Both the position numbers and the translations under genes were made by a program. DNA of 64,000 nt from Anaeramoeba flamelloides (Eukaryota > Metamonada > Anaeramoebidae), in assembly GCA_027625915.1 (NCBI GenBank), contig JANTQA010000060.1, positions 1,736,001 through 1,800,000 of the forward strand, given 5' to 3'. The notes below the pieces were generated by a model, which was not told where the DNA came from, searched no databases, and worked only from the letters and a program-made list of their open reading frames with translations. This document shows positions 1,193 to 59,094 of the stretch, piece by piece. How positions within the stretch are numbered: the first letter of the stretch is position 1; each line of letters begins with the position of its first letter.

Positions 1193-4100
1193 ATGTCTCG
1201 TGGATTAACAAAGGAACAAGTCGACAACCTCCAACCATCTCAAGTACTTGACAGTCTCCGTAAAGTAATGCTGATTGATGGCTATGATTTTGTTGTAGAT
1301 ACCGATAACTCAAAAGGGATGTATTTAGTCGATAAAAAAACAAACAAAAAATACTTGGATTTTTTTACCTACTTTGCATCTTCGTAAAATATACTTTTTT
1401 TTTTTTTTTTTCTCGTCGTTTGATTAAGCAAAAGTAATTTCATAAAACCAAACTGTTTTTTTTTTGAGCTAAAACGAGATCTTCAACACAAACACTTCAA
1501 AAACATTTCTTTCAAATAAATAAAGTGCTTTAGGGATGAATCATCCAAAAATGTGCACTGAAGAATTTATCAAATACATTGGAAAGTTGGCGCTGAACAA
1601 AATCAATAATTCAAGCTTTTACTCTCTTGAAATGGGGAAATTTGTCAGCACTTTGGAACGTGTAGCAATGCCAAAAGAGTTCACAAAGGTTTTTTTTATT
1701 TCGGGTGGTGCTCTTGCTGTTGAAAATGCTTTAAAGGCTTCCATTGATTGGAAAGTGAGGAAGAACATTAAAGCTGGTTTGGGGGAAATTGGTACAAAGG
1801 TCATACATTTTAAAGAAGCTTTCCATGGTCGCACAGGGTATCTTTTCCCTTTTTTTTTTTTATTTTTTTTCTTCTTTTCCAAGTTTTTGAATTTTTCCCC
1901 TTTTTAAAAGCAAAATCAAAAATCTTCAATGAACCACTTATCAGTGCAACAAACAAACAAATTTTGTCTACTGTTTGCTCTTTCAATATTATCTTCCTTA
2001 TGTCTACCCTTCCAATCGAACATAATATTTTTCGACAATCGATATTCATTTTTAATAATGGTTGGTTATCTTTCTAAAGGAATTTTCAGATTCTATGCTC
2101 TATAGGGATTGAACTATAATACTTTAACCTCTAAAAATGTTATTTAAAAGAATTCCAATTTAAGAAAAGTGAAGATATTGTTCATTTTAGGATTTTTTTA
2201 TGGATTTTCATTTGAAGGAAAAAATTATTGATCAAAAACTTTTAGTAATTTTCTAACAAAACAGGACAAATTTAAAAAATCATTTTTTACTGATATTGCT
2301 GACGCTTATGTCCAAATTATTATCGAGTATAATGGTACACGTGAAGCAAACTATAGGATGATGATTAAAAATAATTTAGATAAAACCAGTATAATGAATC
2401 TTTAAATTTTTGTCCTTTATCAAAAGTAAATTTTGAATTTTGTTGGTGAAAAGAGTTTTTAACCAAATTGACACATTTTCAAAAAAAAACACTAAAATTG
2501 TCAATTTTTTCACATGAACTCTTCACTCAACATTCTTTAAAGTCAATAAATATGTTGCTATTATAAAAGTAATATTCAATATACTATAAAATCTGAATAA
2601 TACTTCAGGTTCAGTTAGATCTTTATTCTAGAAAAATGTAGTAATTGAAGTCATAATCTTATTCAGTAATCTCTGTTTCAAATCTCTCAAAAAAATCTAT
2701 TTTGTAAAAAAGTTAAAATCATCATTTAAAGCCCTAGTACTAGTATAAAAGCAATAAATGGCTTTTTTTGTCATTTTTTTTGAAATTAACTTTTTTGGAA
2801 TATCGACAAGTTATAGTTTTGAACAAAGTATTTGGCTAGGTTTGAATAGTAATCATTTTTACATTTCAGGCAACCTTTGTTCACAGGATTTTTGAAAAAG
2901 GAGATTGAAAAAAAAAAATAAAATCAAAAACCAAAAAAAAAGTGAGTCACAATTTTTGAAATGATTATTATAGATTTTTTATTACTGGTCTTTAAATTAA
3001 AAAAAGATCAAAATATTTTTTGCTCATAATTATCTTAATTTTAACAGGAATTACAGAGCCTCAAATTTCTAATGTTTATTAGTATTTTCAATGATCTTTT
3101 TTTTTTTCAACTTGATCTTTCTCAAAAAGAAAAGGAAAAAAAAAAAAAAAACAAAGAAAAGAAAAAGAAAAGAAAAGGAAAAAGAAAGAAAAAACAAAAA
3201 TTTGATGAAATTAGAAAAAATGGTTTCTGATCTCAAATTGAAAAATACTATTTTGATAAGAATTGATCCTTTTCACTCAAAACAACTTCCAATAACATTA
3301 TAAAGTGAGTCAAAAATTTTGAAAAATATCTAAATTTAGATTAAAAAGAAATTATAGTTTTTTTAAAAATTCAATTATTCATTAAGTAATCAATTCTTAA
3401 ATTTTTATATCAAAAACAAATCAAAATAATTTATTTGAAGTGGAATAATATCAAAATTCTTTTTTTAACTTTTATCCCTTATTTAAAATATTTTTTAAAA
3501 TAATAAACGAATTGATAATGTTTTTAAGAATTAGTATATATATTTCAAAAATAAAAATAAATTATCATTCTCTACTTGGTATAATTACATGTTTTTATTT
3601 TATCAATAATTAAGGTGTGAATCCGTATCCCCTAAATTAAAATTAAAAAAAAACTACATTATTAGCTCAAAAAAAGCGAATTTTTTTTTTATAGATTAAG
3701 AGAGGAGTTTATAATTCACATTGTTTGCCATGAGGTTTTTTTTTTATTTCAAAAATTAAAAAAAAAAAAAAAAACTAGGCACTCTACTGTACTCTAAGGC
3801 ACTCTATAACAATTTTACTTTGGTTTTTATTGATTTTTATTTTGATTAGAAAATTAATTGATTTTTGAAACAAAAACCAAAATTAAAAAAAAACATCTCT
3901 AAATTTTCTTGGGTTTTCTATTTATAAGGAAAATCAATAGATTTTCGAAACAAAAACAAAAACCTCAAGAAAACGGATGTTAGCCTTTCAAAAATTCAAA
4001 AGAAAACCTCAGTTAGCTTTTCCATAATTCAAAATAATACTCAAGAAAACCTATTGATTTTCTTAATGAACAGAAAACCCAAGAAAACTTACCCGCTATT

Positions 4101-7100
4101 TTTCCATAAATCAAAATAATAGAGAAGTATCTTTAATTTTGATGAATTCTTTTAAATTCTGGAAAATCTAGACACTCTAAGGTACTCTACGGTATCTGAA
4201 GGCACACTACCGAAATTCACCAATTCCTAAATTTATATTTATATTATCACTTTTTGTATATTATTAGTTTTGTTTCTGATTTTTCCTTTAATATTATAAC
4301 TTTTGTTCTTGTTGTTTCCATACGTTTATTATTTAAAATTCAATTTGAATAGTTACACAATGAGCCTTACAAATACAGATCCCATCAAAGTGCAATACTA
4401 TCCAAAATTTGATTGGCCAAGAATTACAACCCCAAAATGTACTTTCCCACTTGAAGGGGAGAATCTTAAAAAAACAATTGAATTAGAGAACAAAGCACTT
4501 GAAGAAATTAAAGAAGCAATAAAAAAAAATCCAAATCAAATCGCTTGTTTAATTATTGAACCAATTCAAGGTGAAGGTGGCGACAACCATTATAGAGCAG
4601 AATTTATGCAGGCATTGCGTGAAATTACTTTAGAAAATGATATTATGTTTATTTGTGATGAAGTACAAACTGGAATTGGTAAATTTCAAATTTTTTGTTA
4701 AAAAATTCTAAATAATTAAATTAATACACATTTTAAAACCTTTTGGGAAAAAAAATTAAAAAATTTAACAGAATGAAACTAAATTTTTAGTATACTCATT
4801 TCAAAAAATTTTGATAAAAAATATTTTTCAAAACATCTTTAAAATAGTTAAGAAACTCTGATAAAACTTTTTATGGCATTATACGAAAAAATTTTTTTCG
4901 TCTCATTTTTTCTAATTGATTCTACTTTTTTCAATTTTCTAATAAGCAATAAAACAGTTGATAAACTTAAATTGGGCGATTTTTAAAACTATATTGAAAA
5001 ATTTTATTTCACAATTTTAAAAACCCACTTTAGAATTGTTCCCTTCTTTTTCATTTAAAAACGTTTCTTCAGAAATATTTAAATATGAAAAATGATAATT
5101 TTTACTAGTACTTTAGAATTAAAAATTGTTAAAAAATAATTTAAATTTAATGATTTTTTTTTTTTTATTATTATTATTATTGAAGGACTGTAAATTACAC
5201 TCTAGTTACCCTTAGACTTAAATTCACTTTCTGAAATTTAAGCGTAAAATCATAGATTTTCTTTCTATAGGGTTTTTACTCCTCCTGTTTCTTGGGACGT
5301 GTCGTCAAGTGCCGTAGGGTGCCTAGCTTTTTTTTAATTTGAAAAATAAAAAGAAAATTTCAAAAATTTTCTTTTAATTTCTCAAATCAAAAAAAAGCTA
5401 ATGGCGCTTTTCCAGAATTCAAAAGAATTTAGTAAAATCAAGTATTTTACTCAATTCTTTCAAATCCTGAAAAACCGAACGACAGTGGATAATTTTTAAT
5501 TTGGTCATATAAATGATATAATATTTTTTTTTACTTTAATATTTTAATTATTTTTCTTCTTCTCTTTTTTATTTAGTAAATTTTCTTTGATTACTCCTTT
5601 CTTATAATAATAATAAGTAAAATTATAGATTTCGCGATTATTAATTAATGAAAATAGTTTCAAACTGTCTTGATTTGAAATTAATTCATTAAGATTTATT
5701 TTTTTTAATTTGTTATGAAAAAAATTTAATGATTTTATACCTGATTTGAATTTGATAATTTGTGTTATTGTTTGTATATTTTTCGTTTTTATTTATTTTT
5801 TCAAGGTGATTTTTTGGATTGAGGAATACATTGAACAAATTTCTCGATGTTACTTGGCTTAAATTTCCATCATGTTTTGTGTGTGTGCGTATTTGCTTTA
5901 AAAAAAGGAAAAAATAAAAATTAAATGTATTTACTGTCTCAAATATTAATCATTGTATATAATCATTGAAAATAATTCATAATACACAGAGAATATGTTT
6001 CTTTACTAAAACAAATTATGTTCTTTTGGGGATTAATGTAAAAAAATATAATAATAATATCAATCAATCAATATAAAAAATCCTCAAATATAAAAAGTAT
6101 CCAAATTTCTACAAATATCTAAAAAAGAAGAAATCTATTACGTTTAATTTGTAATTCAGATTTTGAAAATAATTAACACGCTTTCCAAGATTTTAAATTA
6201 TAAAACCTTTCCAAATAAAATTTTTGAAATTAAAGTAAAAAAATAGATAAAAGTTATTAATTAAAAGAATATTTGACATTAGCTTTTATTACCTCTATTA
6301 ATTTGTCTTCAGAATAACTAATAAATCTCAATGTAATATTTATCGATGAATTTTATTAATGTAAACTCGATTTCGCCCCAAGTGGCCCAGCTAAAATGAA
6401 AAAATCACTTTTTTTTTAAGAATCAATCCAAACTAAGATTGTTTTTAAATACGAAAAATAATAAACTTCGGGTTAGATTCGATGATCATTAACAAAATAT
6501 CTTTACAAACAAACCCTAAATTTTCTAAAAAATAATATTGTAAAAAAATTTGTGATCACTTTTCAGTAGAACCGTCTACTTGCAAAATATCTCAATTTCT
6601 TTAGGAAATTAAAATTGTTGACAATAATATTTTTTAATAATAATTGTATTCATTTTAAAATATATTGTATCGCTTAACTTTTCTTAAAGTTGATTTGGAG
6701 TTTTCAAACATTGTTTTTTTTTGATTCTGACTTTCGAAAAAAAAAAAATAAAAAACTAAATTAGAAAAAAAAATAAAAAAAAAATTGAAGAAATTACAAA
6801 ATAATCCAGCTTTCACTTTTAAAAATTTATTTTGAGAAGAATATTGAATTAAACTCATGGGATATGTTCTATTTTTTCAATAAAACTGGCTTTTTTAACT
6901 GAAAAGAAGTTTCTTAACCTGAATTTTTCATAATTGTCTTGATAATATTGGTAAAGATCGTTTTATTGTAAATTTTTTTTTTTTCAAAATATTCAAGAAA
7001 AATTACAGAATAGAATTTTTTTCATTAAATATAAATTAATCTCAAAAAAATTACCCAAAATAACAAAAATTTTATTTTTTTCTTTTGTGTGATTAATTAT

Positions 7101-8409
7101 GATATCAAAAGAAACCTTTCTTTTTGTTTTTGGATCATCTTTCAAAAGGCATCCAATTACAAAATATCAAAAAATCAAATATTTAATCGTTATGTAAATT
7201 ATAATTGCATAGTATTTTTATTATTAAATAATCCCCAATTCAAGATTTTTAAAACCCCAAAATTCAATTTTTGAAAAAGAAAAATCTTTTTTAATCAATT
7301 CTAGAAGAAATACTAAAATAAAACCATTCACAGATTTAAATGTAAACACTTTTTTTATAAATTACAATACTCATAAAAAAAAAAATAAAAAAATATCAAT
7401 ACTAATAATTCAAGAGTGTATTAAAAATTATGTATAAGGGCAAAATAAAAAAATTAATTGACAAATTTGTTTAAATTTTAATTAGGAATATTGATCGATC
7501 AAATGGCTAGATACCATTGACTAATTTTGTTTGAGTTCTTCTATTTTGAAGAACTTGCTTTAATTTAATATCAATTGTTTGGAAAAAATTGATCGACTAA
7601 AATAGGTTATTTAATTCAAAAAATGAAATGAAAACAAAAAACTAAAAGTTGACAAAATGATTTTCATATTTTACAAAAATCAAAATTATTTCCAATTTGA
7701 ATGAAATTGTATCATTGTGATTTTTTTAGCTGTTTTAATAATGTGGAAAATTTTGAATTTTAGTTTAATTTTTTCCAAAAATTATATGAATATTGTATCG
7801 TTCGTTCTTCTATTAATATATTATCATGGCTTTAAATAACTTGATTTTATTCTTCAATAATTTGAATATGCATCGTTAACTCGTTTTTTTATAGGTTCCA
7901 CTGGAAAAATGTGGGGTTACCAGCATTATGGAATTGTCCCTGATATGATCACATTTGGAAAAAAGGCACAAGTCTGCGGATTCATGAGCACAGATCGTAT
8001 TATGGAAGTTGAAGATAATGTTTTTATGAAATCTTCAAGAATCTTTTCAACATGGGGTGGCAATTATGTAGATATGATCAGAGCACAAAAGATTTTAGAA
8101 ATCATCGAAGAAGACCAATTAGTTGAAAAATCTGCACTCGTCGGGGAATACCTTCTTGAGCAATTATTGTTGATCCAAAACGATTTCCCAAAAATTATTT
8201 CAAATACCCGAGGCAAAGGATTATTTTGTGCAATTGATTTCCCAGACAAAGAGTCCAGAAAGAAGGTTAGAGATCATTGCTATGAAAATGGCCTAATTGT
8301 TATTCCCTGTGGCCCTCTTTCTTTAAGGTGTAGACCTCCACTTGTTTGTGAGAAATCACATGTTGATGAATTTGTTCAAATTATGAGAAAAGCGTTACAG
8401 CAACTTTAA
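1193..8409 (+). CDS. lat: L-lysine 6-transaminase (class III PLP aminotransferase), four exons
   Basis: Exons are 1193-1383, 1526-1837, 4353-4678 and 7895-8409. They join in phase with GT-AG introns to give 447 residues, the usual length of lysine epsilon-aminotransferase. The enzyme moves the epsilon-amino group of lysine to 2-oxoglutarate, giving aminoadipate semialdehyde and glutamate. Family landmarks read straight through the joins: FASSALGMNHP across exons 1/2, HGRTGYTMSLTNTDP across exons 2/3 and DEVQTGIGSTGKMWGYQ across exons 3/4. Also seen are EPIQGEGGDNH, TFGKKAQVCG (PLP lysine by alignment K300), FSTWGGN and GKGLFCAIDFP. The start at 1193 matches the family N-terminus; an upstream TTG in the same frame is not needed. 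The family is best known from bacteria, so an intron-containing eukaryotic copy suggests old lateral transfer (inference). The introns at 1838-4352 and 4679-7894 hold repeats of families A, C and F. Confidence 0.93.
2870..3305. repeat. Family F dispersed purine-rich repeat, copy 1 (in intron 2)
   Basis: It contains a landmark CAACTTGATCTTTCTCAAAAAG, then a long A/G tract, then a tail with TTTCTGATCTCAAATTGAAAA and TTTTGATAAGAATTGATC. The same order of blocks recurs near 29700-30075, 60270-60800 and, more weakly, 6600-6930. The short reading frame through the A/G tract is lysine-rich by composition only. Confidence 0.5.
3765..4212. repeat. Family A modular hairpin repeat, copy 1 (in intron 2)
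   Basis: Both borders carry the family core on the minus strand, CTAGGCACTCTACTGTACTC at the left and CTAGACACTCTAAGGTACTC at the right. Between them lie A/T hairpin modules made of CAGAAAACC/GGTTTTCTG-type and CCAGAATT/AATTCTGG-type arms. The core and the arms recur at 5290-5480, 19368-19645, 52545-52740 and 53100-53430. Confidence 0.65.
5285..5482. repeat. Family A modular hairpin repeat, copy 2 (in intron 3)
   Basis: It has the core AAGTGCCGTAGGGTGCCTAG, then an inverted pair built on TTTGAAAAATAAAAAGAAAA and its complement. A second inverted pair follows, CCAGAATTCAAAAGAATT against AATTCTTTCAAATCCTG. Together they would form two adjacent stem-loops. Confidence 0.7.
6600..6935. repeat. 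Family F dispersed repeat, copy 2 (in intron 3)
   Basis: It shares TTCTTAAAGTTGATTTGG, a following poly-T/poly-A tract and ATTTTGAGAAGAATATTGAA with 29700-30075. It ends with a block resembling CTTTTTTAACTGAAAAGAAG. No coding capacity. Confidence 0.65.
7229..7765. repeat. Family C Tc1-like MITE, copy 1 (in intron 3)
   Basis: A diverged copy of the roughly 530-bp element best seen at 9487-10020 and 46233-46765. The left end starts near AATCCCCAATTCAAGAT and the right end near TGTGGAAAATTTTGAATT. The internal block GAATATTGATCGATCA and the following ACTAAAAGTTGACAAAATGA match 45160-45360. It ends about 130 bp before exon 4 of the transaminase gene. Confidence 0.65.
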
Positions 8410-44700: not shown

Positions 44701-44910
44701 GATTTTTAAGAAACCTTTGAACCATGTAACACGAATTTGGTTAGGTCCAATAACAACATACTTTGTTCCTAGGCTTCTCCTTGGTAGACGCTAACCCCTT
44801 AAGAAGAAATTTACCTTGAAATTGTTCAAAAAGAACAATATTCTTTTATACCTAACCGCCTACCACTTTTTAAATATTCCATAATTTAGGTCAAATGGAT
44901 TAATACATCA
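44701..44910. other. Less A/T-rich spacer
   Basis: Contains CTAGGCTTCTCCTTGGTAGACG and CCTAACCGCCTACCAC. No frame or RNA fold could be supported by reading. Confidence 0.3.
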
Positions 44911-45475
44911 AAACCCCATTTCAAAAAATTTAATACACCAAAATTCAATATTTCAAATTGAAATCTTATTTAATAAATTTAAGAAGAAACATCAAATTAG
45001 AACCATTCAGTAATTGAAATATTAAAACTCACTTATAAAATAAAATACCTACAGAACAAAATAAATAATTATCTATACTAATAAATCAAGCAATGTATAA
45101 AATTTTTGAGAGAGGAAAACAAAAAATATAAATTGATAAATGTTTAAAAATTCTATTAGGAATATTGATCGATCACCTGATTAGATATCATCAACTAATT
45201 GTTATCTGATTTTTTCTATTTTGGAGATTTCAACTTTAACACAATACCAATTGTTGAAAAAAATTTTGATTGAAAAAAATAGGTTATTTAATTCAAAGAT
45301 AAAATGAAAAAAAAAAAACTAAAAGATGAAAAAATTATTTTATATTTTATAAAAATCAATTTTTTTTCAAATTTAAATGAAATTTTATTATTGTAATTCT
45401 TTGATATAAATTATATATCAAATAAAATCGTACATACATTTTCAAGAATTATTCATATTGTTTCAATTTAATTAT
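44911..45475. repeat. Family C Tc1-like MITE, copy 3
   Basis: The left end AAACCCCATTTCAAAAAATTT is a decayed form of the family terminus. The interior GGAATATTGATCGATCACC and the AAATAGGTTATTTAATTCAAA block match 7229-7765. The right end is worn. Confidence 0.6.
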
Positions 45476-47730: not shown

Positions 47731-48870
47731 ATTCGTCTAACAAAAAGGAAAAAATATATAGAAAATAATATTTAAAGTTAGAAATTATATTTATTCAGGT
47801 TTAAAATAATTATTGTATTTTTTCGAAATTAAATCTATTTTTTTTTTACTTGATTATTCTAAAGAATTGTAATTTTCTTTTTAAAATATATTTTAATACT
47901 CTTTTTTTTCACAGACTATAAGATTTCTGACTTCAACAAAAACTATTTTTTTTGAAATAGTTCAGAAAAGATGTTGAATTTTGACTTTTCAAAAATGAGA
48001 AAAATGGGATCAAACTTTTAAAGAAAATAATTCAACTCCAAAAAGAGCAGTTTAAACAACCCAAGTATTGTAGTAATCGATTTTTTACTTCACTTTCTAT
48101 TTCGAGATGTGGGGTATTTTTTTTTTTTTTTTGGTTTTGTCATTTTTTTTTACTTGAATTATTTTTTATCAATATTAGATACTTAACTGTTTTGTTTTTT
48201 AAATAAAGTTTAACTTGCTTCTGGACCGTTTTAATTCAAAGTTTGAAGTTAACTAACTTTTGTATAGTAACATATATATTGGATTTAACATTTTTCGGAT
48301 TAAGTACACCTATTAAAATTTATTTTTTGTGCTTTAGTTCAGAAAATATGTTATTTATAGTGACATCATTTGCACAAACCAAATTTGAATTTCATATGAA
48401 AGGGGTTTAATTATTAAAATCCCTGCCCTACAAGAATACTTAACTGGGTTTATAACATGATGGAATTTAGAGTGAGTGTATAACTATACTTGAAAATTTA
48501 GTGAAGTTTTCTTTAAATAATAACAAAAAATCATTGGTTCAAAATAGTATTTTTTTAAATTTTTGGAATTTATTTTTTAGTCCAAATTAAAATCATCTTC
48601 AATACCTAAAAATTGCAAAATTTTGAATTTCCTTTATTAAACAACATTAATATCATTTTTTATTTACAACGTTATCTTTCAACTCTCATCGATCATATAA
48701 TTTAGAGAACCCTTAAAAAAAAAATATTTTTACCTTCATCAGTTTTTTTCAGAGAAAAATTTTCTTATTTTGTAATCTAAGTCCATTGTTTAGTAATTCT
48801 GAATTTCATCTTACCAGTGAATAAAAGATTTAATAGAAAAAACACAATATTTATTTTTCAAATTCCACAA
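46803..48870. other. Spacer and upstream region of the DENN-PH gene
   Basis: A/T-rich, with a (TA)n run at 47699-47728 and a T-run at 48118-48132. No gene is seen. The DENN promoter should lie in the last few hundred bases. Confidence 0.4.
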
Positions 48871-51800
48871 ATGACAAATTCACCTGTTTTTGAATTTGTT
48901 ATTATCTCAGGGATCGGCAATGAACTCACAGCAATTGACGTAAATGATTCTGACGAGATTACCTATGCAATGGAAATGCTTTTTAAGCCATACATAATTG
49001 CTGTTGAACCGAAAATTGATCCGCCACAATTTATTGAAAGGTTTTTACATCCCGAAAAAGGACTAAGGCTGTACTCTTCAACAAAGCCATATTTTTTTTA
49101 TGAGTTTGTTTTAACTGATATGAAAAGAGACAAACTGTATTGTTTTGCATGTACATCCTACCCAAAATTCAGTAAGGAAAAATATAATGCATTAATGGAG
49201 ATCTTTAAAAAGCAAGGTTCGATCAAAATTATCACTTCTTCATTCAGAAAACAAAAAAACGAAAAACTTCTTCTCTAGCTACAAAATTCACTTCTTCTTT
49301 TTCTTTTTTTTTTCCATGTCTTCTTCTTTTTCAATGTCAAAATAATTTATAACTTGATCTTTTTTTTTAAAATTTTCATCTTTTCAAAATCCAATAAAAA
49401 CAACAAAACGATAAATTTTCTCAAAAAAATCTTCAAAAAGGAAGAGAACTTGGCATCCCACCAGACTTACATAGTCCAAGAACTTTAGCTATTGTTACAA
49501 AGCTTCCCAACCATAAAACATTTAACCTTCTCTTACGCAAATTTATTAAAACAAACCCTTCGATCAGGTTTAATCAAACAGCAGCACAACAATTAACAAA
49601 AATTCTCGCAAATATTCAATCACCACAATTGTCACAACAAATTGTCACTGTCAAATTTACTGAAAAGGAATTGGTGTCCTTCCCAAAAACAAGAAAAAGA
49701 AAATTGATACCTTTAGATGATGTATTATATTTTTTTTTTTTCTTTTTCATTTTCCTTTCTTTTGATCTTCTTTATTATTTGGTTTTGGAATTTGGAAAAA
49801 AATTTTATTTTGATATTCGAAAATTTTTGTAATTTACCATTTTCTTCGATTTTATGGAATTTAAAAAGGATCAAATCACTTAAAATTACTTATTGAACAG
49901 AAATAGAATTCAAATTAAAAATTACCCGAAAACATTAAGATAGAAAAACTATAAAAATATGACGAAAAGTAAAGGCTTTATTCGAACTGATTTTCCCAAA
50001 TTCGATTGGATGACAAGTAGGGGTTATTTACCCAAATTTACCAAATCGTGAAAGTTTCTAATTTGTGATCACAAACCAACCAAATTGTTCAAAATCGTGA
50101 TTTGAAACAAAAAATGATTTTCGATCAAATTATTTCTTCCTTTTGCATACATTTCATTTTTTTTGGTTCAAATTTTACAATTAAATATTTTGTCCTATTT
50201 GGGTAAGGTAACCAAATCAAAATCTCCAGCACAACCAAAAATAAATTCAGAAAATTCAACCAGAAGGCAAATATAATGAAAAGATGTCTTGATCTTATTT
50301 TTACTTTGTAAAAATATTTCTTGAATATAATTTTACATCGAATAAATTTCAAAAATGTAACTTTTCCCCGTTTTAGAAAATGAATAGTAAGTAAGCTTAA
50401 ATTGAATCTCAGGAGCAAATTCCTTCAATATTCTCTATCTTTGGAAGCACCATACCTAAAACAAAAGATAATAATATCAATTAATGTTCCAAAAGCCTCA
50501 GAGAAATAAAACGATGAAAAACTCAAAGTTTGAATTTTTCAGGTCTTTGGGATATAAAACATAAAATAAAAAACAAATTTGAAAGTTCTAGAATCCTTTT
50601 TTGATATCCTCTCAAATTAAAAAAGGACTTTTCAAATTCAAATATAAAGGAAATTTGCATTTGAATATTTAATTTACTTTTCAGAGAAGAAATTCTACAA
50701 AACCCCTTCATCAATTAACCCGAATCCAGGAACATTTGCATTTATTTCAAAACTTACAACTTTAAAAAAGGTTTCATAAGTTATCAAAGAAAAAAAATAA
50801 TTTTTAAAAACAAATTTTTTTGATTAATAACCCAAACGAAGAAATAATTAAATTTATTAAAGAAAGAAATGTTTTATTTATTCACAAATCCGGGGATGAA
50901 GTAATTCCTTAAAATTATAGACCAATATCAATTAATAATACCTTAACAAGATTTTTTCAAAAACTTATTGATAGAGGGATAGAAGATTCTTGGAATCTAG
51001 TTTTAGATTCTCAATTCGGATTTAAAAAAAAATTGGATACAAGAATAGCTTTTCTAAATTTACTATTTGAACTCAAAAAATTCAAAAACAAAATATAAAA
51101 ATCAGGAATTTTTTATTGTCACAATTGATATTAAAAAATGCTCTGACACAATTAGTCAGTTATTAGTTAACTATACTCCCAATAAATATATTCATAATGA
51201 AAAAATTAAAATTTGTTACAAAAAAATTATAAAGAAGAAAAAAGGAATAGGAGTTTTATCAAGGAGAGATCCCCTTTCCCCTTTAATGTTTAGATTTATC
51301 AACCACTTTTTAATTCAAAAAATAAAAGATCTGATTAAACATGTCCAAATGTTTGCAGAATACCATGGTCAAAATAATGCCTGTTGAAAAGTATAATCTG
51401 TGTTGCAAAATAAAAAGCGTGTTTTTTTTTTGTTATAAAAGACCTATAAATAAACCAATCAAATAAACTGATAATAAACCCTAAAAAATATTGTATTGAT
51501 TTCCTAAAGTTCTATTATTTAAAAAGAAATTCTTAAAATAAAGAATCAAATTGGAAATTCTTTCTCAAAAAATAGAGTAAATTTTTGAAGAAAATTTTCA
51601 TCATCCAAAAAAACAAAAAATTTACAAATAAAAATTAAGAAAATTACTAAAAATTTTGAACAAAATTCCATTCCTAATTTAAAATTTACTTAAAACCTCA
51701 AGGATTTTACCTTCAAAACTGAGTTAAACTTAGGTATACTATTTGATAGTGAATTTGATGTTCCATTGAAACAAGAAGAAAAAAGACACGTATTATATTT

Positions 51801-54355
51801 TGAAACACTGATTATAGTCTTTTAGCACGCATTATTTTGATCACTATACTTAATTTTAATAATGGAAGGACTCAATATCAGAAATTGACAAAAAGTTAAT
51901 ATTAATTTATACTATTATCCAAGAATTTGTAATGAATCCAAATATAGATAAAACCACAAAATCAAATCAATTATCAGAAATAAATTATTTAGACATTTTG
52001 GCTTGGAAAAGAGAAACATTTACAAAAAAACTTTAAAAAAGTAAAAGATAATTTTAAAAAAATCAAAATGATTTTTAACCAAAAAAAAAAAACAGCCAAT
52101 GGAGTAAAATTACAAATGCTTAAATCAATATACATTCAGCCAACTATTTTATGGCTTAGTAATTTTCAATCTAACTCAAAAAGATTTCAACATGATAGAT
52201 GTTTGTATAAATAAAAAAGTCACAAAATTGTTTAAAAAATTAATACACATCCTCTCCAAGAATAATTTATAAAACTGAAGCCAAACTAGACAAAGTAAGA
52301 ATTTCGATATATAAAAAAAGATTTAAACTCAAAAAGAAATTAGAAATTCTTGGTTTTGAACACATTTCAAAAAATTTAAAATTTTCAAAAAAAGACAACG
52401 AAAATATTAATTTGAAAGTAGAAAGTTGAAAACTACTAGATTTAAATCTTAATCAATTTAGAGAAAACTTAATAATAAATAGTTCTGGATGGAAAGTTCA
52501 AGAATATTTGAAAATTATTAGGCATAATAGCAATATAAATAAACACCCGTGTCGCCAAGTGCCGTATAGTACCTAGGTTTTCCAGAATTCAAAAGAATTT
52601 AGTTAAATCCTTGATTTTGCTATATTCTTTCAAATTCTGGAAAGGATAACTGCTTTTTTTTTTTAATTTGAGAAATAAACAGAAAATTTTATAAAAAATT
52701 CTATTTATTTCTTAAATTAAAAAAAACCTAACAACAAAAATAGTTTCAAATGGAAGGGTTCTACTTCCATCTAAAAAGTAAGAAACTTCACAAATTATCT
52801 AAATAGATATTCTTATGTTTATGATAAGAATTAAATAAAAACAAAATCTTGCAATTTATGCAAAAAATACTTCAAATCAGAAATCATTGAAGATATCGAT
52901 CATTTTTTATGGGACCGCCCATTCTATAAAGAAAATAGAATAATTTGGATTAAAGATTTAATCCAAATGAACAAAAATAATCAAAATAATATCTTTGATG
53001 TTATTTAAAATAAAGAATCATATTTATTTTGTCATTGGTTAATGATAAAGAAAATTATGATTCTTTATTGAAATTTCTAAACATAAAATTTAGAAATTAG
53101 GGAGAAGTTCCATAGAGTGCCGTAGAGTGCCTAGGTTTTCTTGAGGTTTTCTGTTTCATTTGTTAAATCTATCAATTTTCGTTAGGTTTTTTTTTCTTTT
53201 TGAAATCACACAGAAAATTTTATTAAAATTTTCTATTTATTTCAAAAAGTAAAAAAAACCTAGAACACTTCACAAATAAAAGAGAAAACCTCAAAAAAAC
53301 CTAGAAAACTTTACAAATAAACAGAAAACTCAAGAAAAGCTAACGGCAGTTTTTTTAATTTTTGAAATAAACAGAAAATTAAATAAATTTTCAGTTTATT
53401 TCTTAAATTAAAAAAAACCTAATGGCTGTAAGAGGAAACTAATTTCCTCCCTTCAAAATAAAAAAAAAAAAATATTCTAATTTTTTTGACATTCTTTTAA
53501 TCAATTCATCTTACATTGACAAACCAAACTTTAAAACAAAATAAAAACCAATAATTGTGAAGAGCCCCATTCTAAAAGTTAAAAAGAAGACATAATATTT
53601 TCATTACTTTTTGAAAAAGTACAGTAAGTGAAATAACCCGTGTTTTTGTATTTTATTATTTTTCAAAAAATTTAAATGTTGTTTTTGAAATTTTGTTGAA
53701 ATAATTGTTGTTTTTAGGATTTCGTTTTGTGGGTGTTTGGAATACATGTGTTATTTTTCAGATTTTATTTTATTGGGAGTTTCAAATAATTGTTTTTGTT
53801 TTTTTAATTTATGTTTTGCGGGCCTTCTATGTTTGAATGATCGTGCTTGAATTTTACATTTTCTTGAGCTGTTTTATTTTTTTTCTGAATCTAAAGGAAA
53901 ATTTTGAGATAAAAGATTTCTTGGAATGATAAAAAGGAAATTGTTACAAGATTGTTCTTGAATTTTACATTTTATTGGATATTTTTTTCAGATTTTTTCA
54001 AAAACTTCATTTTTCAAGATAAAGTTTCACAAATGTATATATACGTTCAATTTAAAGTTCATGTTTTTGATTAAACCCAAAAAAAAAATAATTATTAAAT
54101 CCTTTAAGAAAAAATAAATTCTAATCAATTTAAAAAAACTTATATAAATATCCCTATAAAATTGCAAATTAAAATCCTAAAATTTTGTTCAATAAAGAAA
54201 AATCAGAGTTTAATTTTGAACTTTTAAATTTATGTTTTTTTAATGATAATTTTATTTGTTTTCCATTTTTTCAAATAAAAATATTTATTCTTAATAGTAA
54301 ATTATTTGATATTAAGATTATTATAAAACCCCTGCTAATATAATTTCCTTTTCCT

Positions 54356-54388
<33 letters not shown>

Positions 54389-56291
54389 CAAAATATTAGA
54401 TTGATTATAAAATTTTATTTCGTTCTTTATCACCAGAAAGTATTATTATTATTTGGAATGCAATCTTACGTGAAAGAAAATTGGTATTTCTTTCCATTCA
54501 TTTACAGACTATAACCTCTTGCATTTTGGCAATGCTATCTTTTATTTATCCATTTAAATGGCAATGCCCATACATACCAATACTCCCTATATCATTTAGT
54601 GAACTTTTCCAGTCGCCAGTTCCATTTATAGCAGGTTGCCATTCATCAATATTTTATGAAGCATATTTCCCAGATGACGTAAGACATTCCATTTGTTTTT
54701 ATATTTTTATTTATAAATTACCACAATATTGATCATTTGAAAAAAACAACAATATTCATTTTGATCTTCAATTGAAGATCAAATAAAATTCCAATAGAAT
54801 TCAATATTAATTCTCAACAATCATTTCCACATTTTCGATAATATTTAAATAACATGCTTTTAACTAAGTGACATAAGATTTTGTAATAAAAAAAAAAAAT
54901 TTGTAAAACAATTAGGTTTGAATGAAAAACCTAAAAAAAAAAATAAAGTAAAAATGTGTAAAAATGTGAAAAAGTGATTTAAATTTTTAAAATTTCCTAA
55001 ATTGATTTTTTTCTTCTTCTAATATCTAACAAAACCCGTTAAACACATATAATTAATGCACCACAACTGAAACCCTTTGACTGGAAAATAGTTTTATTTA
55101 TAAATTAGGAGATTTTTGGCAAATATAATTTTTTTCCTCAAAATTATCATTTTTTTGAGATTATTATTATTATTTTAAAAATTAGTTTTTGAACATTCCT
55201 CTTTACAAAATCAATTATTTAGATTTTCTTTCAAAATATTTTATATTTAACCCCTGATGATTGTTAAAAACATTTAAAGGATAAAAAAATACTTTTTTGA
55301 AAAAATAAAACAAAATAATTCTTAAAACTTTTGATGGTAGAGTTATTTGTCTATAAACCTTCTTTGAATTTTTTGTAGAATATAAATGAGAGTTTTCTCA
55401 TTTGGAAATTAGTAATAGGTTCATTTAAATAATCTTTCATTAAAGTAAAGAAAATATATTTTTTTTGTCAATTCATCACATAATAAAATCTTTATAAATT
55501 CAGTGGTACATCAAAAATATTTAAAATAAAAACTTTAAAGAAAAAAAAAGTACTTTTGAATCTTCTGATAAAACTTTAATATTTATTAATAGATGTTAAT
55601 AAATACTATTGTTTCAATTTATTTGTTGTTAGTTTTTCTTTTATAGTTCATCAATATATTTATATTTGATGATACAACATTTGAATTCAAAATCAAATTT
55701 TTCATTTTACAAAGTATCAAACTGTGATTTATTATATTTTCACTTAATTGAAATTATATTTCATTTTCTCTTTTTCAATTTTTTTATCTTTTGTTTTATC
55801 TTATCTAAAAGAAAATGATAATAATTGAATTCAAAATTTATTCATCAAAAAGAAGTTAAACCCATTTTACAAAAAAACAATGAGTCTATAATATTCTAAT
55901 GAATTTTTATCAAACAAATTATTATGATTTTTTTTTAGGGAATTTTTCTCCTTTTAAATTTCAAGAAAAAAATCTTCAACTTGATCAATTGTTTTTTGAT
56001 CAGTTGAAAATTCAACTTTAAATAGATATAATTGAAAATTTTAACTGATTTTTTGAATCGTGATCCAATTGTAAGAAGACTTTAAATGATCACAAAAAAT
56101 TATTATTTTCAGAACCTTTCAGCAAAAAAATTACTCGTAAAAGATTGGCTTTTTATTGTTGATAAACGAAAAAAAAAATATGTTAATCAAATCCTTTCAT
56201 TTGAGTTCTATATTTTTCAACTTTCTTTTTAAAATCGATTTTATCATTTCAACAATTTAAATTTTTTTTTTCCCCTTTTCCGAAAATTTCG

Positions 56292-56326
<35 letters not shown>

Positions 56327-59094
56327 AAAATTCAAAAAACACATTTTTAATTTAAGCATGTTTAAATTTGAATTTACTATTTTGATCATTATTGTTTTTT
56401 TAGAAATTTAATTTATAATTCTTTCTCCATAAATCTTAGAAATCATTTCAAATTTTTTTTCCGTTAATTCTACTTATTTCATTTTTAAATACGATTATAC
56501 ATCAAATTTAATTATAGGTAATAATTATTGATTTAGATGTTGATCATATTGTTTCTAAAGAACCTTTGGTTGATTTGCCAAGAAAAACAAAAAAAATACT
56601 ATTAAAAAATATAACCAAAAATGCAAATTTATTTAATTCACCTCAAAAAAACTTAAGAATTTCACCTTTAGTAAATATACCAAAAATTCAGCTCATTGAA
56701 GAAGAAACTAGCTACAAGCCTACTTATTGGAAATCATATCAAAAAAAAAAAAAAAATAATTCTCATTTCCGAAAAAATAAGAATAATAAAAAAAAAATCA
56801 GCCATTTAAAGACTAAAAAAACTGTGACGCCATTAATACTAAGAAATAAAAAGAAAATTTCGAATCAGAAAAATTCAAATTTACATAAACAGAAAATTAG
56901 AATCAGCAGATCAAACAAAACTCAATCACTTACGCCTAACATTAATAGACTACAAACAAGAAATTTACAGAAAAAAAATAATTCAAAATTTTTATCTAAT
57001 GATTCTAATTTTAAGAATATGGATATAAAATTAAGAAGGAATGTATCAAAATCATTAAATTTTAGTAAAATTGACGATAATGATTCCGATATAACAACGA
57101 GTACCACTACAAGCAAAGTAATAAATAACTTTAAAAAAAAGACTAAATCGTTGGATTTAAAGCACCATGAGGATTTAGGAATAATTATTAATCACGATTC
57201 AATCACCATTGACTCAACGAATTCACCCTCCTCAAAACAACAGAGTGAAAAAACAAACCATGAAAATATAAATGAAAATGGGAATGGCTATGATAATGAG
57301 GATCAGGATGAGAATGTTGAAAAAAATGAGAAAGAGGATGGTAAAGGTCTAGATAATGAAGATGAATATGAAGATGAAAATGAAAATGAATATGAAAATG
57401 AAAATGAATATGAAGATGAAAATGAAAATGAAAATGAAGATGAAAATGAAGATGAAGATGAAGAAATTGATGAAGATGAGGACGAGATAAAAGACGAACT
57501 TAATCCGTTTATTAATATTGATATAGAAATAATTGATAAGGAAAATGAGAATCATCAAAATAATAAGGAAAGGGAAAAGGAAAAGGAAAAGGGCGAAAGT
57601 GAATTAAACCATAAATACGGGAATAATGAGAATAAAGAAAATGTGAAACAAAACGATGAGAACAAATCAAAGCAAGATAATAAGAAAGACAAAAAAAAAC
57701 GAAAAAAAAAGAAAAGAAAAAAGAAAAAGCATAAAGATAAAAAAAGGAATAGTAATAAAAACAAGAGAAAAAAATTATCAAAGAAGAAACTACGAATTGC
57801 TAATTTAAAAAAAGGATTTGTAAAAATTTTTATTAATTGGTTTCATTCTTATGATCAATTTATTTTTCCTAAAAATGTCAAAAGCGACAATTCAACAAAT
57901 ATCTTTGATTTTGAGGGCTTTCTAAAAATTGTACCAGAACATACAACATTATTTTGTAAGAACTTTTTAGAAACCCAAATGTTTATTTCTTTTATAGAAG
58001 AAACACTTTTAGATATTGTGCATGAGAATTATTATTTTGAAAAGCAAGCCGATAACAAAAGAAGGGAATTTTGTAAGCACTATACAAAATATATAATTCC
58101 AACTAAAAGAGGATACATGTCAAAAAAAGAAAATGGCAGATTTAAAATTTGGAAAAAAAGGTATTTTATTGCGAAACAAAAGGGTTTGTATTATTATAAA
58201 AATTCTGAACCTGAATCGTTAAAACAAACACCAGGTATTATCCAATTAATTACCGGGGAGACACAAATAGTAATACCAAAAAACAAAAAAGATGAAAAAT
58301 CAAAAATAAAAATAAAAAAAAAAATAAAAAATAAGAATAAGAATAAAAATACAGATAAGAATACGGATAAGGAGACGTATAAGAACAAGAACAAGAACAA
58401 GGATAAAAATAAAAATAAGAATAAGAATAAGAACAAGAACAAAAACAAGAATAAGAATGACAATAACCATGGGCACAGACAAGAGTATTACTTTGAAATC
58501 CATAATCGAATAAATAAGGATAAAAAACAAGACAAAAAAATTATCCAATTTCGGGTTGATACAAAACATAAACGAAATAAGTGGGTATCACAATTAAAGA
58601 CAATTTGTATGAAAGAATCAAATATTAGTTACACTAAGCGTATCAATACCATAAAAACAAAAAAAGTTATTCAAGTTCAAGATCTTAAAGAAAAAAGGCT
58701 TCAAAAAATTGAAAGAACTAGATTAAATGAAAGTAGGGTTTTTTCAAGTCCAAAAGAAAATTTAGTTGATATAGGGATTTTAAATGAATCTTTATTCCGG
58801 GATAAGAGCGACGTTGAAGAATATCATTTCAATAATCAGCAGGAGATGTCCTCGTCATCGGATTATGTTATCGATGATCAAAGCAATACGGGTGCTGATA
58901 CAGAGATCGATACAGATACAGAAAATTATAAAAATGGGGATGGTGATCAGATTGGTACAGATGAAAGCCTGGTTGAAGGTGGAGAAGAAAACGAAGAGAT
59001 TTTAAGAAAGAAGAAAAAAGAAAAAAGAAAAGGTGAAGACGAATCGAGTAATACCATTGTAGATAACGAAGAAAGAAAAATAACTTTAAAATAA
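48871..59094 (+). CDS. DENN domain protein with C-terminal PH domain (Rab GEF), four exons
   Basis: Exons 48871-49216 (or 49171), 49441-49721, 54400-54678 and 56518-59094 join in phase, giving about 1160 (or 1145) residues. uDENN: about 1-105 (FFYEFVLTDMKRDKLYCFAC). cDENN: about 120-320, with RTLAIVTKLPN, then across the third join LDDIDYKILFRSLSPESII. LYPF-like SFIYPFKWQCPYIPILP and, across the last join, FPDDVIIIDLDVDHIV complete it. Then come an acidic Glu/Asn/Asp stretch (about 550-630), a basic stretch, and dDENN (about 730-807, FLETQMFISFIEETL). The PH domain lies at about 833-1002 (RGYMSKKENGRFKIWKKRYF, then KRNKWVSQLKTI), with a Lys/Asn repeat tract inserted in one loop. DENN modules exchange GDP for GTP on Rab proteins; PH domains bind phosphoinositides. 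So it probably activates a Rab at a membrane. The ATG at 48871 is chosen because the frame upstream looks non-coding. Confidence 0.85.
49722..50819. other. 5' part of the 4.7-kb DENN intron
   Basis: Donor GTATTA at 49722. A/T-rich, with no supported frame; short minus-strand frames at 50125-50418 and 50523-50714 are not recognisable. Confidence 0.35.
51400..51838 (-). repeat. Family D MITE, copy 4, nested in the LINE
   Basis: Reverse complement of the family: it ends (plus strand) with GCACGCATTATTTTGATCACTA and begins with GCAAAATAAAAAGCGTG. Inside are the complements of the AATAATAGAACTT and TGATCGGTTGATGCAT blocks. LINE sequence resumes on both sides, so it jumped in after the LINE. Confidence 0.75.
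52545..52740. repeat. Family A modular hairpin repeat, copy 4, nested in the LINE
   Basis: CCAAGTGCCGTATAGTACCTAG core, then the CCAGAATTCAAAAGAATTTA / ATTCTTTCAAATTCTGG hairpin. Next comes the TTTGAGAAATAAACAGAAAA / TTCTATTTATTTCTTAAATT hairpin. LINE-like coding sequence continues after it. Confidence 0.75.
53100..53432. repeat. Family A modular hairpin repeat, copy 5
   Basis: AGTGCCGTAGAGTGCCTAGG core, then GTTTTCTTGAGGTTTTCTG. Two rounds of the GAAATAAACAGAAAATT / AATTTTCTATTTATTTC inverted modules follow, with AAAAAACCTA ends. Confidence 0.75.
53433..54399. other. 3' part of the 4.7-kb DENN intron
   Basis: A/T-rich, with locally repeated blocks such as TTTTTCAGATTTT and AATTTTACATTTTCTTGAG. 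A 28-base A-run lies at 54361-54388, just before the acceptor TATTAG at 54394-54399. Confidence 0.4.
54935..55090 (-). repeat. Family H SINE-like repeat, copy 2 (in the last DENN intron)
   Basis: The reverse complement matches 38865-39015: CAGTTGTGGTGCATTAATTAT-like head, then GGAAATTTTAAAAATTTAAAT and CACATTTTTACACATTTTT. Box A is more worn than in copy 1. Confidence 0.5.
55091..56517. other. Rest of the last DENN intron (54679-56517)
   Basis: A/T-rich with an (AT)n run at 56292-56323. Acceptor TATAG at 56513-56517. No frame or repeat could be paired. Confidence 0.4.

Follow-up and report, generated by a model that had tools for sequence, protein, structure and literature searches.

The DNA studied here was a stretch of 64,000 nt (referred to below as the window) from contig JANTQA010000060.1 of Anaeramoeba flamelloides, positions 1,736,001 to 1,800,000, which has a GC content of 24% and sits in a host genome of 254 Mb in 76 contigs. 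Near its start, the window carries a four-exon gene for a bacterial-type lysine 6-transaminase (LAT), which has four paralogues in the same genome. The gene was organized as follows (positions of the window):

1193..1383 (+), LAT exon 1, from the start Met1 (MSRGLTKE) to a phase 2 end within a Ser codon
1384..1525 (+), intron 1, 142 bp, GT..AG, position and phase common to the four paralogues
1526..1837 (+), LAT exon 2, from the splice model and paralogue comparison
1838..4352 (+), intron 2, 2515 bp, GT..AG, with dispersed repeats; paralogue counterparts of 363-1212 bp
4353..4678 (+), LAT exon 3, carrying the Glu242 switch residue and Asp270, from the splice model and residue alignment
4679..7894 (+), intron 3, 3216 bp, GT..AG, with dispersed repeats; paralogue counterparts of 124-166 bp
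7895..8409 (+), LAT exon 4, with the pyridoxal-phosphate (PLP) lysine Lys299, Thr329, Arg421 and the stop codon, from the splice model and residue alignment

The four joined exons encoded a 447-aa protein with no internal stop. The protein scored 594.4 bits against the LAT_fam model TIGR03251, a curated equivalog with a cut-off of 520.8, with an alignment that covered the entire profile (positions 1-433 of 433), and the nearest solved structures were the LATs 2jjf and 2cin (417 bits), the latter being the M. tuberculosis enzyme according to PMC9780415. With the model of eukaryotic GABA transaminase (GABA-T), TIGR00699, the score was 274 bits, below the cut-off of 567.15. All three intron codons and phases were identical in the four further LAT genes, and because the same intron positions occur in these genes, the exon joins are supported even without RNA. 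Comparison of the window copy with the paralogues gave a dN of about 0.26 and a saturated dS (1.8-3.3), which fits purifying selection. The window LAT gene is real. An earlier note on this DNA, made from the letters alone, had described a protist gene for a LAT of bacterial type, interrupted by three introns, two of them multi-kilobase, with exons that join exactly to 447 residues, and this description stood. Its picture of repeat-filled introns broadly holds: a dispersed repeat of about 515 bp in intron 3 (7220-7726) recurred with 77% identity at 44899-45402, and other pieces of the two large introns also had copies at 70-85% in other parts of the window.

The whole-genome search for Aminotran_3 domains (20/20 candidates scored) gave 23 exon matches at 9 loci, five of which were LAT: the window gene, one gene each on contigs C57, C22 and C24, and one at a second place on C61. 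The five copies were spread over four contigs of 3.9-24 Mb, with a third-position GC of 0.26-0.30. Each of the four other copies was an intact 475-aa model with introns of 124-439 bp, except for a single one of 1212 bp, and the copy on C57, the only one of them scanned, scored 629.5 bits on the LAT model, above the cut-off. The paralogues were mutually 91-96% identical and 66-67% identical to the window copy, which is the most divergent of the five genes. The branch of the window copy measured 0.37, and the path of the other copies about 0.32-0.37; among the columns conserved to at least 80%, 12 were changed in the window copy alone and 9 in the four paralogues taken together. Overall divergence is about equal among the copies, and what is distinctive for the window copy is which sites changed. 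Among the remaining Aminotran_3 loci, the closest solved structure of L003 was ethanolamine-phosphate phospho-lyase; the top NCBIfam models of L001 and L003 (one exon scored each) were uncharacterised aminotransferases, below cut-off, and L002 and L004 look like L003 by eye.

Residues of the window copy were compared with M. tuberculosis (Mtb) LAT and with 80 prokaryotic LATs, in which 103 columns were at least 95% identical. The window copy departed at five of these 103 columns (Mtb to window: Asp97 to Ser94, Ala104 to Gly101, Phe249 to Tyr248, Asn328 to Phe327 and Phe423 to Cys422), and four of the departures were unique to it. The four paralogues together departed at two, Ala104 and the Gly at window position 42. 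Three of the changed residues were located as follows:

1614..1616 (+), Ser94; Asp in 80/80 prokaryotic LATs and 4/4 paralogues (Mtb Asp97)
8044..8046 (+), Phe327; Asn in 79/80 prokaryotic LATs (Asp in one) and 4/4 paralogues (Mtb Asn328, active site)
8329..8331 (+), Cys422, beside the substrate arginine; Phe in 77/80 prokaryotic LATs and 4/4 paralogues

Mtb Lys300, Glu243, Arg170 and Arg422 were kept as Lys299, Glu242, Arg166 and Arg421 of the window copy, which also kept Gln274, Thr330 and Asp271; all of these except Asp271 were found to be kept in all five copies. According to PMC9780415, Asn328 belongs to the active site, is contributed by the partner subunit and helps to hold the C5 substrate. 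For Asp97, no role was found. As a pair, Asn328 and Asp97, chosen from our own 80-row conservation and not from a published family definition, were lacking in the window copy and present in the four paralogues. The aligned segment of mitochondrial GABA-T (4y0i) reads RIFNTW, and that of the window copy RIFSTW. The changes of Asn328 to Phe, Asp97 to Ser and Phe423 to Cys in the pocket suggest an altered substrate range of the window copy. The earlier note had all motifs intact and saw a working lysine 6-transaminase. The first claim stands for the PLP- and carboxylate-binding residues and fails at Asn328 and Asp97; the second is open to doubt, because the substrate pocket has changed despite a conserved catalytic set, and lysine 6-transaminase activity has better support in the four paralogues.

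The four paralogues carried 28 extra N-terminal residues relative to the window copy, and their start, MQ(N/K)LFGS(I/L)QKS(N/S)LLKTIG...SRSLSRGLTKK, was basic and free of acidic residues. In our judgement, such an N-terminus is typical of matrix targeting, and the four close copies would thus carry an organelle-type (hydrogenosomal) presequence. The start Met of the window copy replaces the Leu of LSRGLTKK in the paralogues. No earlier in-frame ATG was present in the window gene back to the stop before 1106. A hidden presequence exon was also considered and rejected: no homologous presequence was found in the 3.2 kb upstream, where a non-homologous one is possible. Because it has no presequence like that of the paralogues, the window copy probably acts in the cytosol.

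Prokaryotes, viruses and plasmids were searched together with this one genome. The scan of genome contigs gave at least 558 confirmed relatives, of which the best 80 were kept as prokaryotic loci; these 80 included many Ignavibacteria, Bacteroidota, KSB1 and metagenome-assembled genomes (MAGs), with some archaeal MAGs. The closest prokaryotic match among those listed was 58% identical and came from a MAG. A quick tree was built from 89 rows and a careful tree from 84, after three viral rows, the M. tuberculosis row and one near-duplicate had been dropped. In the 84-row tree the five protist copies formed one clade (support 100/100), sister to three MAG loci, L014-L016 (97 bootstrap, 76 SH-aLRT), and the next neighbour of this group was a Zixibacteria row (81/89). 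In the 89-row tree the window copy was sister to the other four (support 99). The stem of the protist clade was long (0.41).

The protist LATs thus form one clade surrounded by prokaryotes of uncultured and FCB types, none of them a close donor, which points to an old transfer; a recent transfer is unlikely, because the best relative is 58% identical and the stem is long. The best fit is a single acquisition long ago, after which the gene gained introns and was duplicated. The earlier note had read long residence from the large introns. Long residence itself is upheld by the intron positions shared among the five copies and not by intron size, which is no clock, the introns of the paralogues being short. 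Other sources were not supported. The M. tuberculosis row fell elsewhere in the tree, against an actinobacterial origin; Heimdall/Kariarchaeota loci have LAT but stay outside the protist clade, against an Asgard link; and the plasmid search gave two distant records (E up to 1e-60). LAT-like genes on three contigs classed as viral (L094, L095 and L096) were 42-44% identical and far off in the tree, and a viral source was likewise rejected. L094 and L095 were the same in sequence, with a stop within the frame read. Literature searches found nothing linking lysine 6-transaminase with protists or horizontal gene transfer, nor anything on lysine aminotransferase with saccharopine and amoeba, or on lysine degradation with hydrogenosome and aminoadipate.

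A second enzyme, aminoadipate-semialdehyde dehydrogenase (AASADH), which the earlier note had proposed to look for elsewhere in the genome, was represented by candidates. The search for aldehyde dehydrogenases (ALDHs) gave 12 matches (11/25 candidates scored, so that further ALDHs may exist), including four ALDH7-type genes. Their main exons were 48-51% identical to the dehydrogenase adjoining LAT in Weeksella, and NF050084 was the best NCBIfam model for 4/4 of them at 480-494 bits, one exon being scored each against a whole-protein cut-off of 730; the Weeksella enzyme itself passed it (837.6 bits). L105, the one compared with solved structures, was most similar to antiquitin 2jg7 (462 bits) and alpha-aminoadipic semialdehyde dehydrogenase 6o4e (447), ahead of 10fm (384) and the piperideine-6-carboxylate dehydrogenase (Pcd) 6rtr (341); we take 2jg7 and 6o4e to be animal proteins. 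Two of the ALDH7-type genes had MTD(L/F)TFNKFDFLAELG at the first Met of the open frame that was read. The other two shared an upstream ATG frame, MLSSIT(T/S)FK(S/T)SSS(I/L)LLRSLSVS, which looks like a presequence. LAT and AASADH therefore both seem to occur in targeted and untargeted forms. Among the 80 prokaryotic LAT loci, an ALDH lay within the fetched flanks at 22, of which five were of AASADH type and 17 of another type (one partial); the single example of the latter that was scanned fell below the cut-off of its best model.

For the saccharopine route, the search for saccharopine-dehydrogenase C domains gave two matches, a stand-alone saccharopine dehydrogenase (SDH)-like gene (L113) and a PH1688-like gene (L114). 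A bifunctional fusion of lysine-ketoglutarate reductase (LKR) with SDH was rejected, L113 standing alone within 7 kb with an upstream frame that reads as actin-related by eye. L114:1480-2634 (-) (G000:C46:1453042-1453785) was an open gene of 385 aa, closest to P. horikoshii PH1688 (166 bits), which we take to be a lysine-dehydrogenase-like protein; a second entry from lysine to the semialdehyde through L114 is possible. The domain PF05222 (AlaDh_PNT_N, the LKR N domain) gave five matches, L115-L119, and no LKR was recognised among them in this exon-by-exon search. L115, L117 and L118 read as transhydrogenase-like, and L116 (similar to L115 in score and length) and L119 (adjoining L118 and matching the other profile half, as in a split copy) are presumably transhydrogenases as well. 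These loci, on G000:C29, C41 and C48, had fused halves, and L117 was strongly diverged with acidic/lysine-rich inserts.

No candidates were found in the genome for PF16870 (OGDH/DHTKD1 C-terminal; controls positive in 6 of 14 genomes), PF02770 (acyl-CoA dehydrogenase; 9 of 14) or PF00282 (glutamate-decarboxylase-type; controls positive in 8). The first two domains represent the glutaryl-CoA branch of lysine breakdown, and the classical path past 2-aminoadipate looks closed. One P5C-reductase-type match was present, which makes pipecolate a possible end product. The FeFe-hydrogenase large-subunit domain gave 48 matches, some of which were pieces of one gene, so that the hydrogenase family looks greatly amplified; together with the absent PF16870 and PF02770 candidates, these matches argue for an anaerobic host that bears hydrogenosomes. 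For the hydrogenosomes of Anaeramoeba, the predicted products are H2, acetate and propionate (PMC11550330).

Taken together, the window gene is probably a functional, divergent member of a five-gene LAT family that arose from a single ancient prokaryotic acquisition, followed by introns and duplication, with paralogues that would be targeted and act on lysine and a window copy that would be cytosolic with an altered substrate range. An ancestor of the protist would have acquired LAT once, from an uncultured and probably FCB-like prokaryote, and the gene would then have gained introns and duplicated. In the hydrogenosome, aminoadipate semialdehyde would most likely be formed by the four close LATs, with 2-oxoglutarate accepting the epsilon-amino group of lysine. 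The semialdehyde, or its cyclic form, would be oxidised with NAD+ by the ALDH7-type enzymes to 2-aminoadipate, yielding glutamate and NADH. Because no classical 2-oxoadipate dehydrogenase was seen, the carbon skeleton would be exported, stored or handed on to some enzyme that the searches did not find. In the cytosol, its probable location, the window copy might use a different amino donor. Such a mosaic route from lysine to 2-aminoadipate is likely, because four ALDH7-type genes are present and LKR was not recognised, and the uncommon route through aminoadipate semialdehyde suggested in the earlier note gains support in this way. Transfer direction, location, activity and flux are inferred from sequence comparison. 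Several results weigh against this account: the SH-aLRT value of the protist/MAG sister pair was just 76, with MAGs as the nearest rows; branch lengths do not support a general speed-up of the window copy; L113 and L114 leave room for other lysine routes; the exon-by-exon domain search could miss LKR; and no AASADH-type neighbour was present at 75/80 prokaryotic LAT loci, many of which had short flanks.

The strongest competitor, which we hold to be possible but doubtful, sees in the window copy an ordinary LAT of the cytosol that has the lysine activity of its paralogues and tolerates the pocket changes. All tested PLP- and carboxylate-binding residues are kept, the LAT_fam score far exceeds that for GABA-T (594 and 274 bits), and the branch length is like that of the paralogues; the changes at five of the 103 conserved columns, four of them unique when the other four copies together show two, and the part of Asn328 in holding the C5 substrate (PMC9780415) speak against it. 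A window copy turned into an omega-amino-acid (GABA-T-like) transaminase is rather unlikely. Phe327 matches the RIF[N/S]TW of mitochondrial GABA-T, the GABA-T/LAT scores were 274/594 in the window copy and 255/629 in C57, and no separate GABA-T was recognised, the scanned L001 and L003 not being GABA-T and L002 and L004 being L003-like by eye. However, the GABA-T cut-off of 567 is far away, and with no PF00282 candidate in the genome a source of GABA is not evident. We also entertain, as a distinctly unlikely speculation, a compartment-split, mosaic route assembled from the bacterial transaminase and the protist's own ALDH7, in which hydrogenosomal half-oxidation of lysine to 2-aminoadipate feeds NADH into H2 production, while a GABA-T-like change of Asn to Phe has turned the cytosolic window paralogue into a transaminase of a different omega-amino compound.

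Two further explanations concern the origin of the gene. LAT could be ancient in eukaryotes and have survived in scattered protist and animal lineages, with no transfer into this one, as the reported nematode annotation (PMC4054779) and the long stem of the clade (0.41) would allow. In both trees, neither of which included another eukaryote, the five copies fell among prokaryotes; the family was 'previously considered restricted to prokaryotes' according to the same Haemonchus genome paper of 2013, and 4-5% of Anaeramoeba genes are reported as transferred (PMC11550330), so that we regard this explanation as improbable. Bacterial contamination or mis-assembly would agree with the prokaryotic nature of the closest relatives found; it is practically ruled out, in line with the earlier note, by the introns, by the spread of the five copies across four large contigs (3.9-24 Mb) and by their third-position GC of 0.26-0.30.

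Other features were seen in the window and the genome:

11543-17401 (-), a single open frame of 1952 aa with a HECT-ligase-like C end by eye and long KE and GR low-complexity tracts
48781-59094 (+), uDENN, DENN, dDENN and PH domains in open frames that span 10 kb and may belong to a single gene with long introns

RPS23/S12-type ribosomal protein matches occurred at 13 places, and in the six-frame search one TAG lay inside 6/13 of the N-terminal matches. A. flamelloides is reported to have more than 1100 ribosomal-protein genes, and Anaeramoeba genomes to be A+T-rich (PMC11550330).

Compared with known systems, the window protein resembles bacterial LAT (EC 2.6.1.36; TIGR03251; 2cin, 2jjf) in 433/433 profile positions, the PLP lysine, the Glu switch and both substrate arginines. 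The protist family differs from it by three introns, five copies and a presequence-like N-terminus in four of them, and the window copy by Phe at Asn328 and Ser at Asp97. Bacterial LAT paired with piperideine-6-carboxylate dehydrogenase (e.g., the adjacent genes at locus L092) carries out the same two reactions from lysine to 2-aminoadipate, whereas the protist genes are unlinked and L105 is nearer to the antiquitin type than to 10fm or Pcd 6rtr. The saccharopine pathway (LKR/SDH, AASS) reaches the same semialdehyde; the protist has the stand-alone SDH-like gene, whereas none of the five PF05222 matches was recognised as an LKR. Mitochondrial GABA-T (4y0i, TIGR00699) was the second-best family and has the Phe of RIF[N/S]TW in common with the window copy, whose score is far under the family cut-off. 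The laterally acquired genes described for Anaeramoeba (PMC11550330) belong to a similar A+T-rich, hydrogenosome-bearing host with many bacterial genes, most of them thought to act in mosaic pathways. In the main text of that paper, 'lysine' occurs solely in poly-L-lysine and the sole 'aminotransferase' is SerC; its supplements may list LAT.

If true, this duplicated LAT family, with its introns and its targeted-looking and untargeted forms, would clearly illustrate how a transferred enzyme can rewire the amino-acid metabolism of an anaerobic eukaryote, here side by side with ALDH7-type dehydrogenases and in the absence of the usual downstream steps, and the five natural paralogues would provide a test set for how a single pocket residue sets omega-transaminase specificity.

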